From Ignavibacteriales bacterium (lineage in GTDB: Bacteria; Bacteroidota; Ignavibacteria; Ignavibacteriales; Melioribacteraceae): a DNA stretch of 64,000 nucleotides. The DNA is taken from assembly GCA_021740915.1 (NCBI GenBank), contig JAIOYW010000012.1, forward strand, positions 62,001 through 126,000. Direction: 5' to 3'. This document shows, piece by piece, positions 2,985-8,564 of the stretch (the stretch's first letter is position 1; every line of letters begins with the position of its first letter). The position numbers were made by a program, and so were the translations under genes. The notes under the pieces were generated by a model. The model worked only from the letters and a program-made list of their open reading frames with translations, was not told where the DNA came from and searched no databases.

Positions 2985-4286
2985 TTATTTCTCTGATTTA
3001 TCTATACGGGCAGTACCGGTGACGCTGTCTAACCCGAATAGTTCTTTGATTATCATCGTCCGTGTGGATATTTCCTGCACATTCGTCCCTGTCTCGGCGA
3101 TTTCCCTCAGATTAATTGTCGGATTATGCAGCAGTCTTCCAATCATCCTTCGGGTCATATCCTCAAGTTTAATGAAATCATCCTCGGTCACTTTATTTTT
3201 TATTTTATTTAACTCATCGCTCCGGATATCCTCGAAGAAATCGCGTAAACTTCTTATTGTCGGAACTACTTCAAGTGTATTATACCACCCGAAAAATCCT
3301 GTCATTTCCTCCATTATCATTTTTTCGACAATTGGAATTTCTTTTTCGCGTTTCTTCAGGTTCTGCTGCACTACAACCTGCAGACTATCCATATCATGAT
3401 AGAAAACATTGTCGATTTTTGCGACTTGCGGATCAATGTCTCTCGGAATTGCAATATCCATGATCACAACAGGTGCACCTTTCCGCCTTTTCATCATGTT
3501 AGCTACATCTTTCTGAGTCAGAATCAATTCTTCAGAACTTGTAGCACTGATAATAATATCATACTGATGCACATGTTCATTAAGAAACTCGAAAGGGACT
3601 ATTCCTCCGTGAATTTTTTTTGCGAGTTCTTCGGCGCGCGAAAGTGTTCTGTTTGCAACATCAATCTTATAAACACCTTTGGAGAACAGATTCGTGGCTG
3701 CTAATTCACCTGTTTCTCCTGCACCAATAATAAGTGCGCTCCTCTTTTCCAGATTGGCAAAAATCTTTTCAACCACCTGAACTGCTGCATAGCTGACCGT
3801 AACGGCTCCCTCACCAATCGATGTTTCTTTTATTGCACGTTTTCCCACTTTTAATGTCGTGTCAAAAAGTCTTTTAAGAACTGGTCCGGCGAAATTCATA
3901 TCGTGTGAATGGTCAAAGGCAGTCTTTACCTGCCCAAGTATCTGACTGTCGCCGATAATCAGACTATCAATCCCAGAGGCTACTGAAAAAATATGTTTTA
4001 CAGCCCCACAAGAGAAATATTGTCTGAAATTCTCTTTTGTCAGCCCCCCTGCCGCTTTTTTCCTGATCAGGAGTTCAATTATATCTGTATAGCCTGATAA
4101 TACGATATCTTTGGGAACACCAAAAATCTCAGTGCGATTACATGTTGAAAGTATAAATCCTTCTTTGAAATAAGATTTCCGGAGTTCTTCTGTCAGTTCC
4201 GTTATCTCAGTTTCACTGAGGTGAACAGCCTCTCTGAATTCGATCGGGGCTGTTTTATGATTTATTGAAATACCAATGAGAAACAT
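2985..4286 (-). CDS. hemA: Glutamyl-tRNA reductase HemA
   Basis: HemA reduces glutamyl-tRNA to glutamate-1-semialdehyde with NADPH, the first committed step of the C5 heme pathway. This shows the organism makes aminolevulinate from glutamate rather than from glycine. The catalytic cysteine is Cys49 in LSTCNRTEIF. The NADPH domain carries GAGETGELAA, and the C-terminal dimerisation helix follows. The length of 433 residues is typical. It sits second in the operon, 12 bases after the ccsA-like gene. The next enzymes, hemL and hemB, are not in the window. Confidence 0.97.
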   Translation of the reverse strand: MFLIGISINHKTAPIEFREAVHLSETEITELTEELRKSYFKEGFILSTCNRTEIFGVPKDIVLSGYTDIIELLIRKKAAGGLTKENFRQYFSCGAVKHIFSVASGIDSLIIGDSQILGQVKTAFDHSHDMNFAGPVLKRLFDTTLKVGKRAIKETSIGEGAVTVSYAAVQVVEKIFANLEKRSALIIGAGETGELAATNLFSKGVYKIDVANRTLSRAEELAKKIHGGIVPFEFLNEHVHQYDIIISATSSEELILTQKDVANMMKRRKGAPVVIMDIAIPRDIDPQVAKIDNVFYHDMDSLQVVVQQNLKKREKEIPIVEKMIMEEMTGFFGWYNTLEVVPTIRSLRDFFEDIRSDELNKIKNKVTEDDFIKLEDMTRRMIGRLLHNPTINLREIAETGTNVQEISTRTMIIKELFGLDSVTGTARIDKSEK

Positions 4287-4298
4287 AAAATGTCTTTC

Positions 4299-5123
4299 TT
4301 AATAAAATTCATGAAAGCTGCTTGCAAGCACTCTCAGCAGAAAAAGCGATAAAATCGAAATTCCGAATCCCGCAAGGGAAAACATTATGATTTTTTTTCC
4401 ATACCAGTTAAACAGCAATTTCAGCAAAATACCAATTCCATAGATCAGCCAGACTATCCCGGTTGTTATGAGTTTGGGATCAAAATAGCTGAAATCGGGA
4501 AAAGCTTCGGGTAACCATATAATCCCGATTGTTATAGAAACTGTCAAAAGCGCAAAGCCAATTACAACAGAAAAAAAACTTAACTTTTCAAGTGTTTCGA
4601 GACTTGGCAGTCTTTCGAAAATCAGCCCGAATTTACTGAGTTTAATATTTTTATATAACGAAAGGAAAAGTAAACCGTAAACCCCGGAGAGAACGATGCC
4701 GGAATACCCCAGTAAAGCGCTGACAACGTGCAGTCCAAGGAGTCTGTTCCTTAAAACTTCTTTTACCTCAACCAGATCATCAATATAAACGGTTGATACC
4801 AATTGAAAAACCAAAGCGAAAATAATAATAAACGCTCCCGTCTGCCTTACATCAGTAAGCAATTCTATCACAAAATAACAGAAGGCAAGCGAAAACGCCA
4901 GAACCGTGAAAATTTCATATTTATTCGTGATTGGAGGATGGTTAAACTCAATTGTTCGTGCGAGAAGATAAAAAAGGTGCAACACAATCGTAACGAAAAG
5001 GAAAATGCGTTTATAATTCTGTATCGAGTCGTTTTTTCCGAAGAATGCCGCGGCATAAACAGCTAATACCAGTAGATATGCTACGGAAAGAAACCAATTT
5101 AATCCATGAATTGCTGGTAACAT
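4299..5123 (-). CDS. ccsA: CcsA/HemX-family cytochrome c assembly membrane protein
   Basis: A 274-residue polytopic membrane protein with about eight hydrophobic helices, first gene of the heme operon. The family (CcsA/ResC/HemX, cytochrome c assembly protein domain) handles heme for cytochrome c maturation. The HemX subgroup sits beside hemA in several phyla and affects HemA level. The sequence shows the family's conserved histidines in membrane context (HVVSALLGYSGIVLSG at about 131-146). The W-rich heme-handling motif of full CcsA is not obvious, so a HemX-like role is as likely as a true c-heme synthetase subunit. Confidence 0.82.
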   Translation of the reverse strand: MLPAIHGLNWFLSVAYLLVLAVYAAAFFGKNDSIQNYKRIFLFVTIVLHLFYLLARTIEFNHPPITNKYEIFTVLAFSLAFCYFVIELLTDVRQTGAFIIIFALVFQLVSTVYIDDLVEVKEVLRNRLLGLHVVSALLGYSGIVLSGVYGLLFLSLYKNIKLSKFGLIFERLPSLETLEKLSFFSVVIGFALLTVSITIGIIWLPEAFPDFSYFDPKLITTGIVWLIYGIGILLKLLFNWYGKKIIMFSLAGFGISILSLFLLRVLASSFHEFY

Positions 5124-5304: not shown

Positions 5305-5781
5305 TCAAACAGGGTAACCGAATTTTCTTCCTTCCCTGCTTTTTTCTCTTTTCTGGTTAAGATGATTTTTGATTAATAGAAGGGCGCTTTTTACTCTATC
5401 CGACATATAACCGGATTTAAGGGATTTCTCAAAATATTTCACCGAATATGTCGCATCACAATAGAGGTACAATATTCCAAGTCTGAGATTGGCTTCCGGG
5501 TCATCCTCATTTGTAAGATGTTCAGTATCATAAACAAGTTCAGGGCAGGGACAATCATCTTCGACCGGATTTGTGTTCAGAATGATATTAATATCTTCGC
5601 TTATCAGCGATAAAAAAAGTTCAAAGGCTCTGCTGATTTTACCTGTCTGTGTATAACAGATAATTAGTTTTTTTCTTACTTGCTTATTCTGCGGATATCT
5701 GTTAAGGATTTCTTCAAATATTTTTTCGGCCTCAGAATAATTCCTGATCATAAACAACTGATTTCCTAACATTTCACTCAT
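5305..5781 (-). CDS. Small TPR-like protein of unknown function
   Basis: 158 residues with no signal peptide or membrane segment. The N-terminal half (about residues 5-55) reads as a tetratricopeptide-type helical hairpin: NYSEAEKIFEEILNRYPQN, then VRKKLIICYTQTGKISRAFELF. A second helical repeat lies near 95-125 (ANLRLGILYLYCDATYSVKYFEKSLK). A linker contains an acidic Cys pair, DDCPCPE. Such repeats mediate protein contacts and no enzyme motif is visible. It follows the rhodanese gene by 101 bases, across a hairpin, and precedes the heme operon, so it may be transcribed alone or by read-through. Function unknown. Confidence 0.65.
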   Translation of the reverse strand: MSEMLGNQLFMIRNYSEAEKIFEEILNRYPQNKQVRKKLIICYTQTGKISRAFELFLSLISEDINIILNTNPVEDDCPCPELVYDTEHLTNEDDPEANLRLGILYLYCDATYSVKYFEKSLKSGYMSDRVKSALLLIKNHLNQKREKSREGRKFGYPV

Positions 5782-5882: not shown

Positions 5883-6884
5883 TTAATTACCTGTGACATA
5901 AGGATAACCCATTACGTCTGTGTCTGGTTTGAAAACTGTCAAACCATTGGCTTTTGCCCAATCGTAATTAAGTATATTTACACCATTAAGAAGGGTTTTG
6001 GCATCATAGCCTAAAAGTTTCAAATATGCTGCAACATGTGCTGATGTCTGTCCAGTATAGCACCAAACAACGATAGTTTTATCTGTTGGAAGGGTCTTAA
6101 GATTAACATCTAATTTCAGATCAACCTTCGGAGTGTATTGGATTGAATTAGGAAGATGTCCAAGATTGTAATGATTTTCTGGCCAGTAGTTCACAATGTA
6201 ATAATTTGAGAGAGCGGGTGTAAGTGTTGTGTGCGCAATTTTAACATCACCGAAAGGATCTGCTGATGATAACATTGCAGCAACTCTTGCTTTGAGAATA
6301 TCTTCGCCTGTCTTTTTACCTGTTGAAAGTTTCGGGAGGCTTCCGGCTGTGCCTTTAGCGGTAGCTGTTGTAACAAAATCAGTATAGTTATTTCCCATAC
6401 CGCCGTTCCATGAAGTAGCAACTGCTGAATTCCATGCTGACATGCCGAATTTTAGGTCATAAACATTGCTATATCCAAGAATTCTTAGCAGTGATGTTGC
6501 ATAAGCTGCGGTCTGTCCGGAATAGCAGGCAAGAACTATTTTTTCATAAGAAGTTGTGTTGATGCTTTCCATATAGGCAACGAGTTCGCCCAATGTTTTG
6601 TTTACCGCACCTTCAATATGTCCTTTATTAGCAAAATCCGCAGCACTTCTGATATCAATAACCAATAATTTGGTGGGATTTGTAAGGCGGAGAGTATTAA
6701 CATCAGCAGCGGTGATCATTGCCGGGGCCAAAGTGTTAATAAAATCACCATTTGCCTCGAGGTATTTTACAAGTACTTCAGATTCATTGACTGTTTCGGG
6801 CGGTGTAACCGGATCGTCTTCGCATGCCACAAAGAATAAAAATGGCATCAATAGCAACAGATAATATAGCTTACGTAAGTTCAT
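5883..6884 (-). CDS. Tandem rhodanese-domain lipoprotein
   Basis: A 333-residue exported lipoprotein. The signal peptide ends in lipobox FFVAC, with Cys21 the lipid-anchored residue. Two rhodanese (sulfurtransferase) domains follow. Domain 1 (about 50-155) has VIDIRSAADFANKGHIEGAV and the active-site loop CYSGQTA with Cys120. Domain 2 (about 200-320) has HYNLGHLPNSIQ and the loop CYTGQTS with Cys275. Both loop cysteines are present, so both domains could carry a persulfide. Domain 2 lacks the usual D-x-R before its GH motif, reading IVNYWPENHY instead. It starts 41 bases after the multiheme cytochrome and almost certainly shares its transcript. The context suggests a periplasmic sulfur-transfer partner of that cytochrome. 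The substrate is unknown. Confidence 0.9.
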   Translation of the reverse strand: MNLRKLYYLLLLMPFLFFVACEDDPVTPPETVNESEVLVKYLEANGDFINTLAPAMITAADVNTLRLTNPTKLLVIDIRSAADFANKGHIEGAVNKTLGELVAYMESINTTSYEKIVLACYSGQTAAYATSLLRILGYSNVYDLKFGMSAWNSAVATSWNGGMGNNYTDFVTTATAKGTAGSLPKLSTGKKTGEDILKARVAAMLSSADPFGDVKIAHTTLTPALSNYYIVNYWPENHYNLGHLPNSIQYTPKVDLKLDVNLKTLPTDKTIVVWCYTGQTSAHVAAYLKLLGYDAKTLLNGVNILNYDWAKANGLTVFKPDTDVMGYPYVTGN

Positions 6885-6925: not shown

Positions 6926-8326
6926 TTATAATCCCCAGCTGGAAGGTAGTTTACCATCCACCACGGTTGATTTATTAGCCTCAATTTCCCATGGTTGAAG
7001 ATCTGATTCAAAAAGATATAATTCTTTGTTAATAAGTACGCCGCCTTCATTCCTGATGTGGCATCCCGCAGAGCAAGTCGTGTAAAGATCACCGTTGGCG
7101 TCTGCTGTTCTTGGAGTGCGTTTCAGAATATTATGCGGAGTAGCATACTTGTATGTCGGGAATGCATCGAAATTAGTTAACACCGGGGTTCCAAATTCAA
7201 CCCAGCTATCAGGTGCCATCGGCGCTTCGCGCAAAGTGGCATATTTAATTCCCGGTTTAATTGTCGGAATGGGGTTCATGCCGATCTTATAACCCTGATG
7301 AGATGGTATCCTGGCGCCTTCTTCCGCACCAATATGACAGCTTCCGCAGTTGTTGTATTCCTGAGAATGACAGACATTGCAATTCAGGTCTGCTATCGGG
7401 TTGGATGCATTAGCATGCATATTATGATAAAGATTTGAAGTTGCAACATCCTGATGGCAATCGCTGCAGGAGGGTAGCTGAGCAGTCTTATAACGCTGGT
7501 CATAATATTGTCCGTCACCATGAACTTCATTCATCGAATGGCAGTTGAGACAGGTAAATCCTGCTTTGCTCAGATGTACGTCAGGAGAAGTACCGGCACC
7601 CTGTCCAAAATAAGCGTGTCCTCCCCGGCTGACATGGCATCCGACACAGATATCTTTCATATCCGGAGTTTTGCTGAAATTATGTCCCTGATACAATCCG
7701 CCGCCTGTTGCTTTCGGTCTGTTTACGTGGCAATCACCACAGGAACCGTGACATTTTGCACAATTGTGATCGTAGCCTTCTTTCATGAGATCTGAGAGAA
7801 GATCAAACTTATCAGGTCCGGTACCAAGTCCCATCCTGCTGGTGACCATACTTTTCTGTCCCCAACCCTGTTCGTGTGTGCTGTTATGAGTTCTTTCAAA
7901 AACATCAGCATGACAGCCTGCACATTTTTCCGCTGCATCATGTGAAGGTTTGTTGAGGAAACTACCGGAATGTGCAACTGTTTTGTCTGAAGTGCCATCT
8001 GTTCCGTTATGGCAAAACGTACATTCGATTTTTCCATGAAAACCGTTCTTAAATTCAGTATATCCCTCTCCGCCAAGATAAACCCTGTCATAAGGTTCGA
8101 TGTGGGGTGTTTCTCCGCCGCATCCGCCGCCGCCGGTTGAGGGAGGATCTGGTGTGTAAACGGCTTTTAAGGTAACGTAACTGGTGTGGCATCCTTCGCA
8201 ACTGTTGATCGCTTTCTGATTTTCAACAGGAGTTACTATAGGATCTTCATTTTTATCAGCGCACCCAATGACAACAAATGCGGTAGTAAAAAAAGCCAGA
8301 TACCAGATTTTGTTTAAATGCTTCAT
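6926..8326 (-). CDS. Multiheme c-type cytochrome lipoprotein (10 CxxCH plus one CxxxCH)
   Basis: 466 residues from the ATG at 8324-8326, chosen because it opens a clean lipoprotein signal MKHLNKIWYLAFF with lipobox VVIGC (Cys22). An ATG 13 codons upstream would spoil the signal. CxxCH heme sites start at residues 43, 102, 135, 189, 196, 227, 259, 287, 316 and 327. An eleventh, CSAGCH (418-423), has three residues between the cysteines, a rare spacing. A glycine-rich patch (65-71, with an extra Cys) lies after the first heme. No match to the catalytic motif of NrfA or octaheme reductases (CxxCK) is seen. It probably transfers electrons at the outer or inner membrane face. It leads an operon with the rhodanese lipoprotein, behind a sigma-54-type promoter. 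Confidence 0.93.
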   Translation of the reverse strand: MKHLNKIWYLAFFTTAFVVIGCADKNEDPIVTPVENQKAINSCEGCHTSYVTLKAVYTPDPPSTGGGGCGGETPHIEPYDRVYLGGEGYTEFKNGFHGKIECTFCHNGTDGTSDKTVAHSGSFLNKPSHDAAEKCAGCHADVFERTHNSTHEQGWGQKSMVTSRMGLGTGPDKFDLLSDLMKEGYDHNCAKCHGSCGDCHVNRPKATGGGLYQGHNFSKTPDMKDICVGCHVSRGGHAYFGQGAGTSPDVHLSKAGFTCLNCHSMNEVHGDGQYYDQRYKTAQLPSCSDCHQDVATSNLYHNMHANASNPIADLNCNVCHSQEYNNCGSCHIGAEEGARIPSHQGYKIGMNPIPTIKPGIKYATLREAPMAPDSWVEFGTPVLTNFDAFPTYKYATPHNILKRTPRTADANGDLYTTCSAGCHIRNEGGVLINKELYLFESDLQPWEIEANKSTVVDGKLPSSWGL

Positions 8327-8366
8327 AATTGTTCCGTTAATTACAAGTGATTTTGTCCGGAACAAA

Positions 8367-8383
8367 CTGCAATTCCCGTGCCG
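8367..8383 (-). promoter_or_regulatory. Near-consensus sigma-54 promoter of the cytochrome-rhodanese operon
   Basis: Minus strand, 8383 to 8367, reads CGGCACGGGAATTGCAG. This matches the RpoN consensus TGGCACG-N4-TTGCW at all positions but the first T. GG (-24) at 8382/8381 and GC (-12) at 8370/8369 are exactly 12 bases apart. The inferred start near 8357 gives a leader of about 31 bases ending in GGAAC before the cytochrome ATG. Confidence 0.72.
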
Positions 8384-8425
8384 TTATTAAATCATTGTAA
8401 AACAATAAGATAGGGTGAGAGGCTG

Positions 8426-8442
8426 TGAAACACTTTGTTTCA
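8426..8442. promoter_or_regulatory. Palindromic upstream site A (TGAAACA-N3-TGTTTCA, perfect)
   Basis: A perfect 7-3-7 inverted repeat, TGAAACA CTT TGTTTCA. Its centre is about 77 bases upstream of the inferred sigma-54 start. It is the best copy of a motif that recurs three more times in the next 107 bases, as expected for enhancer-binding-protein sites. Confidence 0.68.
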
Positions 8443-8482
8443 AGTAATTGCCAGGGGAAAATATGAGCAGATCAAATGATTG

Positions 8483-8499
8483 TGAAACAATATGTTTAC
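8483..8499. promoter_or_regulatory. Palindromic upstream site B
   Basis: TGAAACA ATA TGTTTAC: the left half-site is perfect and the right half matches 5 of 7 positions. The centre is about 57 bases from that of site A. Confidence 0.58.
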
Positions 8500-8505
8500 A
8501 CCGGT

Positions 8506-8522
8506 TGAAACAATCTGTTCCA
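8506..8522. promoter_or_regulatory. Palindromic upstream site C
   Basis: TGAAACA ATC TGTTCCA: a perfect left half and one mismatch in the right half, with the same 3-base spacer as sites A and B. It starts 23 bases after site B. Confidence 0.6.
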
Positions 8523-8525
8523 TTT

Positions 8526-8549
8526 TGAAACACTTGAAACACTGTTTCG
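8526..8549. promoter_or_regulatory. Compound upstream site D with two direct half-sites
   Basis: TGAAACA at 8526 and again at 8535, followed by TGTTTCG at 8543-8549. This gives two direct half-sites nine bases apart and one inverted half-site. It lies just beyond the SPOUT methyltransferase stop codon, at the far edge of the intergenic gap. Confidence 0.5.
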
Positions 8550-8564
8550 TGAAGCGCCGGAGGG

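Follow-up and report, generated by a model that had tools for sequence, protein, structure and literature searches.

Which regulator controls the genes for multiheme cytochromes in Ignavibacteria is the question raised by the intergenic gap described here. The Ignavibacteria, a widespread group of anaerobes, have an abundance of multiheme cytochromes and can probably carry electrons out of the cell; nothing published was found on the regulation of their multiheme cytochrome genes. In the 64-kb stretch of DNA that was analyzed (the window), a gap at 8327–8564 separates the end of a SpoU-family methylase gene (8565, minus strand) from the ATG of a ten-heme cytochrome gene (8326, minus strand). 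On the basis of sequence comparison, and with a probability of about 0.87, this gap is read as a sigma-54 promoter whose upstream activating sites serve a single dedicated enhancer-binding protein (bEBP) of the one-component type.

Results

Genes and promoter

The first gene after the predicted promoter (6926–8326, minus strand) encodes a ten-heme lipoprotein cytochrome c with 10 CXXCH motifs, a lipoprotein signal recognized by inspection and a weak Pfam match to Cytochrome_C7/CIII; a PDB search with this protein returned only weak matches to other multiheme cytochromes. It is followed on the minus strand by genes for a lipoprotein with two rhodanese-like domains (5883–6884; PF00581) and for a TPR protein (5305–5781; TPR_19) with a conserved DDCPCPEL motif, the proposed obligate partner of the activator. 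Further along the same strand are five candidate operon members: a gene for a cytochrome c assembly protein of the CcsA/HemX type (4299–5123; PF01578), hemA for glutamyl-tRNA reductase (2985–4286; TIGR01035, over cut-off), hemC for hydroxymethylbilane synthase (2043–2984; TIGR00212, over cut-off), a hemD-like gene for uroporphyrinogen-III synthase (1255–2037; NF004593, below cut-off) and hemE for uroporphyrinogen decarboxylase (189–1274; TIGR01464, over cut-off). These heme-synthesis and cytochrome-assembly genes are possibly carried on the cytochrome transcript, with a 181-bp gap intervening before the assembly gene.

The sigma-54 -24/-12 element CGGCACGGGAATTGCA (8368–8383, minus strand) was assigned by its consensus match and by its conservation in orthologous gaps. 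Read along the minus strand from 8383 to 8368, CGGCACGggaaTTGCA agrees with 11 of the 12 scored positions of TGGCACG-N4-TTGCW by consensus scoring. It ranked first in the window with a score of 11, followed by a runner-up at 10 and most remaining matches at 9, which bears out the sequence-only reading of a near-consensus element ahead of the cytochrome ATG. The element predicts a transcription start at approximately 8358, in agreement with the ∼8357 proposed earlier. The genome was also expected to encode sigma-54, and a single copy of rpoN was found (G000:C11; PF04552, E = 1e-58). A second sigma-54-like element, TGGCACAATTTTAGCA (5162–5147, minus strand; score 10), lies ∼24 nt ahead of the ccsA-like gene; it has a counterpart in L128, is absent from most relatives and was rejected as not generally conserved.

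Palindromes upstream of the promoter

Exact copies of TGAAACA start at 8426, 8483, 8506, 8526 and 8535, and TGTTTCA starts at 8436. The proximal palindrome, TGAAACA-CTT-TGTTTCA (8426–8442), is perfect, with its centre at about -76, and is the sole perfect TGAAACA-N3-TGTTTCA palindrome in the 4.35-Mb genome. The second, TGAAACA-ATA-TGTTTAC (8483–8499; centre about -133), carries two mismatches and the distal one, TGAAACA-ATC-TGTTCCA (8506–8522; centre about -156), carries one. The constant 3-base spacing between inverted partners proposed earlier thus applies to the sites at 8426, 8506 and 8483; the block at 8526–8549, TGAAACAct-TGAAACAc-TGTTTCG, is instead a 9-bp direct repeat of TGAAACA with TGTTTCG at 1-base spacing.

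A cluster of this kind could be a chance or low-complexity feature of A+T-rich DNA, given that TGAAACA-like words are common and that palindromes with up to three mismatches are not enriched across the whole window (8 observed versus 7.7 expected, the shuffle mean). Against this, 124 bp holds six half-sites, whereas the frequency in the remainder of the window predicts 0.027 (Poisson P ∼5e-13). The signal is the clustering and conservation of the sites, not their window-wide abundance. Because the sites are conserved across many genera, the chance reading is already refuted and retains a negligible probability.

Conservation in orthologous gaps

Conservation was assessed with cytochrome orthologs from ∼21 relatives and 80 named loci (72 of them usable), mostly from Ignavibacteria and other Bacteroidota, and a palindrome was called in relatives when it had no more than two mismatches within 320 bp upstream. 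Many orthologous gaps contain a -24/-12 element about 43–69 nt before the ATG as well as palindromes of consensus YGAAACR-N3-YGTTTCA; both features thus persist in other Ignavibacteria, as the sequence-only reading had expected. The distance from the end of the proximal palindrome to the -24/-12 match is 37–41 nt in 26 of 29 gaps, with exceptions at 51 and 80 nt. The palindrome at 8506 and the proximal site are 80 bp apart, and in many relatives the distal site is at 76–81 bp. The 8483 palindrome is an extra site whose position is unmatched in relatives, and extra half-sites resembling the 8526–8549 block occur in L034 and L046.

When the two elements were combined in one strict pattern, GAAAC-N5-GTTTCA-N35..44-GGCA-N6-TTG, one match each was obtained in 12 of 58 genomes (that of the window and 11 relatives), and the reversed-pattern control gave no match in the 58 genomes. 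All but one of these matches precede the cytochrome; that of G025 lies directly behind the bEBP gene and before the TPR gene.

Inverted repeats that start soon after the upstream stop codon in relatives might also be RNA hairpins, acting as a terminator of the upstream gene or as an attenuator and not as operator DNA. The palindromes are, however, upstream of the inferred start, their spacing is kept to the -24 box and not to the upstream stop, and they persist where the upstream gene has been replaced, as with the SpoU-family gene of the window. Given in addition that the stems are short and A+T-rich and lack a T run, the hairpin explanation is considered very improbable.

Conservation is not uniform. 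The motif is absent from the upstream sequence examined in G035, G049, G052 and G054, which have the cytochrome and no bEBP ortholog. L145 and L153 have 3-mismatch sites only, L187 carries a single palindrome and neither a bEBP nor a TPR gene nearby, and G047 encodes a 55%-identical bEBP elsewhere in the genome yet has no palindrome before the cytochrome. Five further loci (L126, L131, L143, L144 and L156) have the cytochrome without the activator or TGAAACA sites and carry sigma-54-like elements at similar distances. Because these elements remain, control there may have passed to another activator.

The candidate activator

In 25 of the 72 usable loci, the gene just upstream of the gap encodes an NtrC-type sigma-54 activator with PAS, AAA+ and Fis-type helix-turn-helix (HTH) domains. 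Palindromes were found in 23 of the 25 gaps with an adjacent bEBP gene versus 3 of the 47 without, the window being among those three; the Fisher tests applied to this association, and to that between site type and activator clade (below), ignore the relatedness of the loci. In the same loci, 34 palindromes occur in 8.25 kb of gap versus 19 in 325 kb elsewhere. The proposal that the palindromes mark an undescribed enhancer-binding protein is thus supported, and the synteny of bEBP genes with the sites picks out a candidate.

In the genome of the window, the ortholog of this activator is encoded on another contig, C13 (112502–113827; L094:5502–6827), and is 61–65% identical to the cytochrome-adjacent bEBPs; the next-closest bEBP of the genome shows 40–50% identity over part of its length. 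The protein contains an AAA+ sigma-54 interaction domain (PF00158, E = 3e-67) and a C-terminal Fis-type HTH (PF02954, E = 2.9e-13). A test for a two-component response regulator found no N-terminal receiver domain (PF00072) and a PAS domain in its place. The protein scored below the curated cut-offs of the named NCBIfam equivalogs (PrdR, NifA, NtrC, NorR, and others), the best being PrdR at 348 bits versus a cut-off of 795. In nearly all family members the GAFTGA loop has the sequence GAFTDA (residues 209–214 of the C13 protein), a variant also present in Desulfovibrio vulgaris DVU2106 and considered compatible with activation (PMC4641369).

The PAS fold is predicted with a pLDDT of 85, and its nearest PDB structures include NifL (FAD), DosP (heme) and LOV domains. 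Three cysteines in a C-x8-C-x3-C arrangement, at positions 49, 58 and 62, are kept in 46, 44 and 46 of 46 members, respectively. This domain could plausibly respond to a redox, metal or heme-linked signal, although the cysteine motif itself is only suggestive of redox or metal sensing.

Many relatives have a similar cytochrome cluster, the activator gene, the sites and the ten-heme operon in one run. It would appear that in the lineage of the window the target operon parted from the regulator gene and that the sites stayed with the target. Given that the activator gene is unlinked in this genome and the sites are kept at the operon, control in trans is proposed. The cluster before the activator gene (L094:1477–5422, on G000:C13) encodes a c554-type cytochrome, a 423-aa barrel-like protein, a 14-heme cytochrome and a CxxCH lipoprotein. 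It is likely a porin-cytochrome conduit, the porin being called by inspection because the 423-aa protein has no Pfam or NCBIfam match. The 1.5 kb preceding this cluster contained neither a sigma-54 element nor a TGAAACA site.

The activator was also expected to carry the motif in its own promoter. This is true of several relatives, and the sites found immediately ahead of the bEBP gene in about one relative in three suggest autoregulation there. In the genome of the window, the region upstream of the C13 bEBP gene has no motif, and autoregulation was rejected for this genome. A regulon scan of the genome, consisting of pattern searches, points to the present cytochrome operon as the only sequence-supported target of the C13 bEBP. 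The other 1-mismatch palindromes all lie within reading frames and are unclustered, and were therefore rejected as targets. A half-site combined with GGCA-N6-TTG gave 13 matches in the genome, none with a listed palindrome except that of the window.

Operator type and activator clade

A sister clade of activators is associated with TGCAACA-N3-TGTTGCA sites. The recognition helix xGRTTLWR, with Gly before Arg-Thr-Thr, pairs with GAAAC-type sites in 36 of 38 cases, and helices with Asn or Asp (xNR/xDR) pair with GCAAC-type sites in 23 of 24. One activator of each clade coexists in several genomes, for example G023, G024 and G029. In a tree that omits the HTH columns, the Gly to Asn/Asp change occurs once only, and several independent events were rejected on this ground. 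The covariation of residue and site therefore represents one evolutionary event, not many, and the match is strong as a pointer and not statistical proof.

Over the two clades together, a -24/-12 element scoring at least 9 is present in 72% of the gaps behind the bEBP stop codon versus 1.1% of shuffles, usually ∼130–170 bp after that stop codon. Proximal sites of the Asn/Asp clade, where found, tend to lie about ten bases further out. The genome of the window has one perfect TGCAACA-N3-TGTTGCA palindrome (G000:C2:115756–115772, L010), in a region that contains no 100-aa reading frame, and no sister-clade activator at the threshold used.

These data bear on a further explanation, namely that the -24/-12 element is real and is worked by another bEBP, while the palindromes bind a dimeric regulator of a different class (for example of the Crp/Fnr or GntR type) that represses or co-activates. 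Odd-length, 17-bp palindromes would fit other dimeric regulators too, and the genome encodes 15 full bEBPs, that is, 14 besides the unlinked C13 candidate that could in principle use the sites. Against this, the sites occur where this bEBP clade adjoins, the site type switches with the clade, and the distance between the sites and the -24 box downstream of them is fixed. Given also that a non-exhaustive search turned up no other regulator gene that follows the sites, this explanation is regarded as improbable.

The TPR protein

Across the 58 genomes, 30 encode both the TPR protein and the activator, 26 encode neither and 2 are discordant, so that the two occur together in 30 of the 32 genomes having either. 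The discordant cases are G015, where three TPR matches were obtained and no activator ortholog passed the threshold, and G022, which shows the reverse. TPR orthologs are found in L120–L168, and in many family members the TPR protein with the DDCPCPEL motif is the product of the first gene behind the promoter. The cytochromes and related proteins behind the promoter differ, comprising the ten-heme lipoprotein, 7-, 8- and 15-heme proteins and C_GCAxxG_C_C redox proteins; despite this variation, the TPR protein is nearly always present beside the activator. The TPR protein of the window thus appears to be an obligate activator partner, for which a cytoplasmic feedback or sensory role may be inferred.

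Discussion

The preferred reading of a sigma-54 promoter served by one dedicated bEBP can be set out as a proposed mechanism. Dimers of the bEBP would occupy the proximal and distal TGAAACA-N3-TGTTTCA sites, and sensing of a redox, metal or ligand signal by the PAS domain would lead to formation of a hexamer. The hexamer would then loop to sigma-54 RNA polymerase at 8383–8368 and use ATP for promoter opening. This would switch on the ten-heme cytochrome gene together with those of the rhodanese lipoprotein and the TPR protein, with the assembly and heme-synthesis genes as possible further targets. In the least certain step, the TPR protein may give feedback to the bEBP or assist it in sensing.

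A wider account may be considered, possible and on balance doubtful. Here, a cysteine-bearing PAS bEBP and its obligate cytoplasmic TPR partner with the DDCPC motif would form an undescribed sigma-54 cassette that has been copied before different multiheme cytochrome modules in Ignavibacteria. Paralogs would be insulated by a single-base substitution in the operator (TGAAACA to TGCAACA) that is matched, where the recognition helix begins, by replacement of Gly with Asn or Asp. The TPR protein, whose own gene lies behind the promoter, would signal the state of the cytochromes or of heme to the activator.

The mechanism class, sigma-54 with a bEBP, is ordinary. NtrC sites have the form TGCACCA-N5-TGGTGCA. 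The Ignavibacteria bEBP resembles NtrC in its AAA+ and Fis-type HTH architecture and in a TGCAnCA half-site logic, especially in the GCAAC-type sister clade; it differs in having a PAS domain and no receiver, a spacer of 3 and not 5, and the half-site TGAAACA. In Geobacter, BccR/CbcBA and PilR exemplify sigma-54 control of extracellular electron-transfer cytochromes or appendages. BccR and PilR are response regulators, whereas the Ignavibacteria bEBP has a PAS domain and no receiver; sigma-54 control of electron-transfer genes is shared.

The closest published case found, compared by description, is DVU3142 of D. vulgaris, a one-component bEBP encoded beside the ohcBAC octaheme cytochrome operon (PMC4641369). 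In both systems, the gene for a one-component sigma-54 activator adjoins a multiheme cytochrome operon, and the sigma-54 promoter and upstream sites were predicted by the same kind of comparative genomics; the DVU3142 regulon also offers a case of a target kept after gene loss (PMC4641369). The DVU3142 gene is, however, divergently transcribed, whereas the Ignavibacteria bEBP gene is upstream in the same direction or unlinked; the loop is GAFTGA in DVU3142 and GAFTDA in the Ignavibacteria family; and the DVU3142 system involves different cytochromes, with no TPR partner described (PMC4641369). Porin-cytochrome clusters of Ignavibacteria follow the same general plan as the C13 cluster that ends in the bEBP gene, and no discussion of a regulator was found in that report (PMC7399161). 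A search of the open-licence PMC literature found no description of the motif, the regulator family or Ignavibacteria sigma-54 regulators. Thus, the regulator family, its operator and the link to the TPR protein appear to be undescribed in the searchable literature.

In summary, the analysis provides a concrete candidate regulator, operator, promoter and partner protein for a multiheme cytochrome operon of Ignavibacteria, all of which can be tested in cultured strains, Stygiobacter electus (bEBP L124) among them. The paired clades with A- and C-type operators, sometimes present in one genome, offer a natural test of how paralogs of Fis-type activators are insulated from one another.
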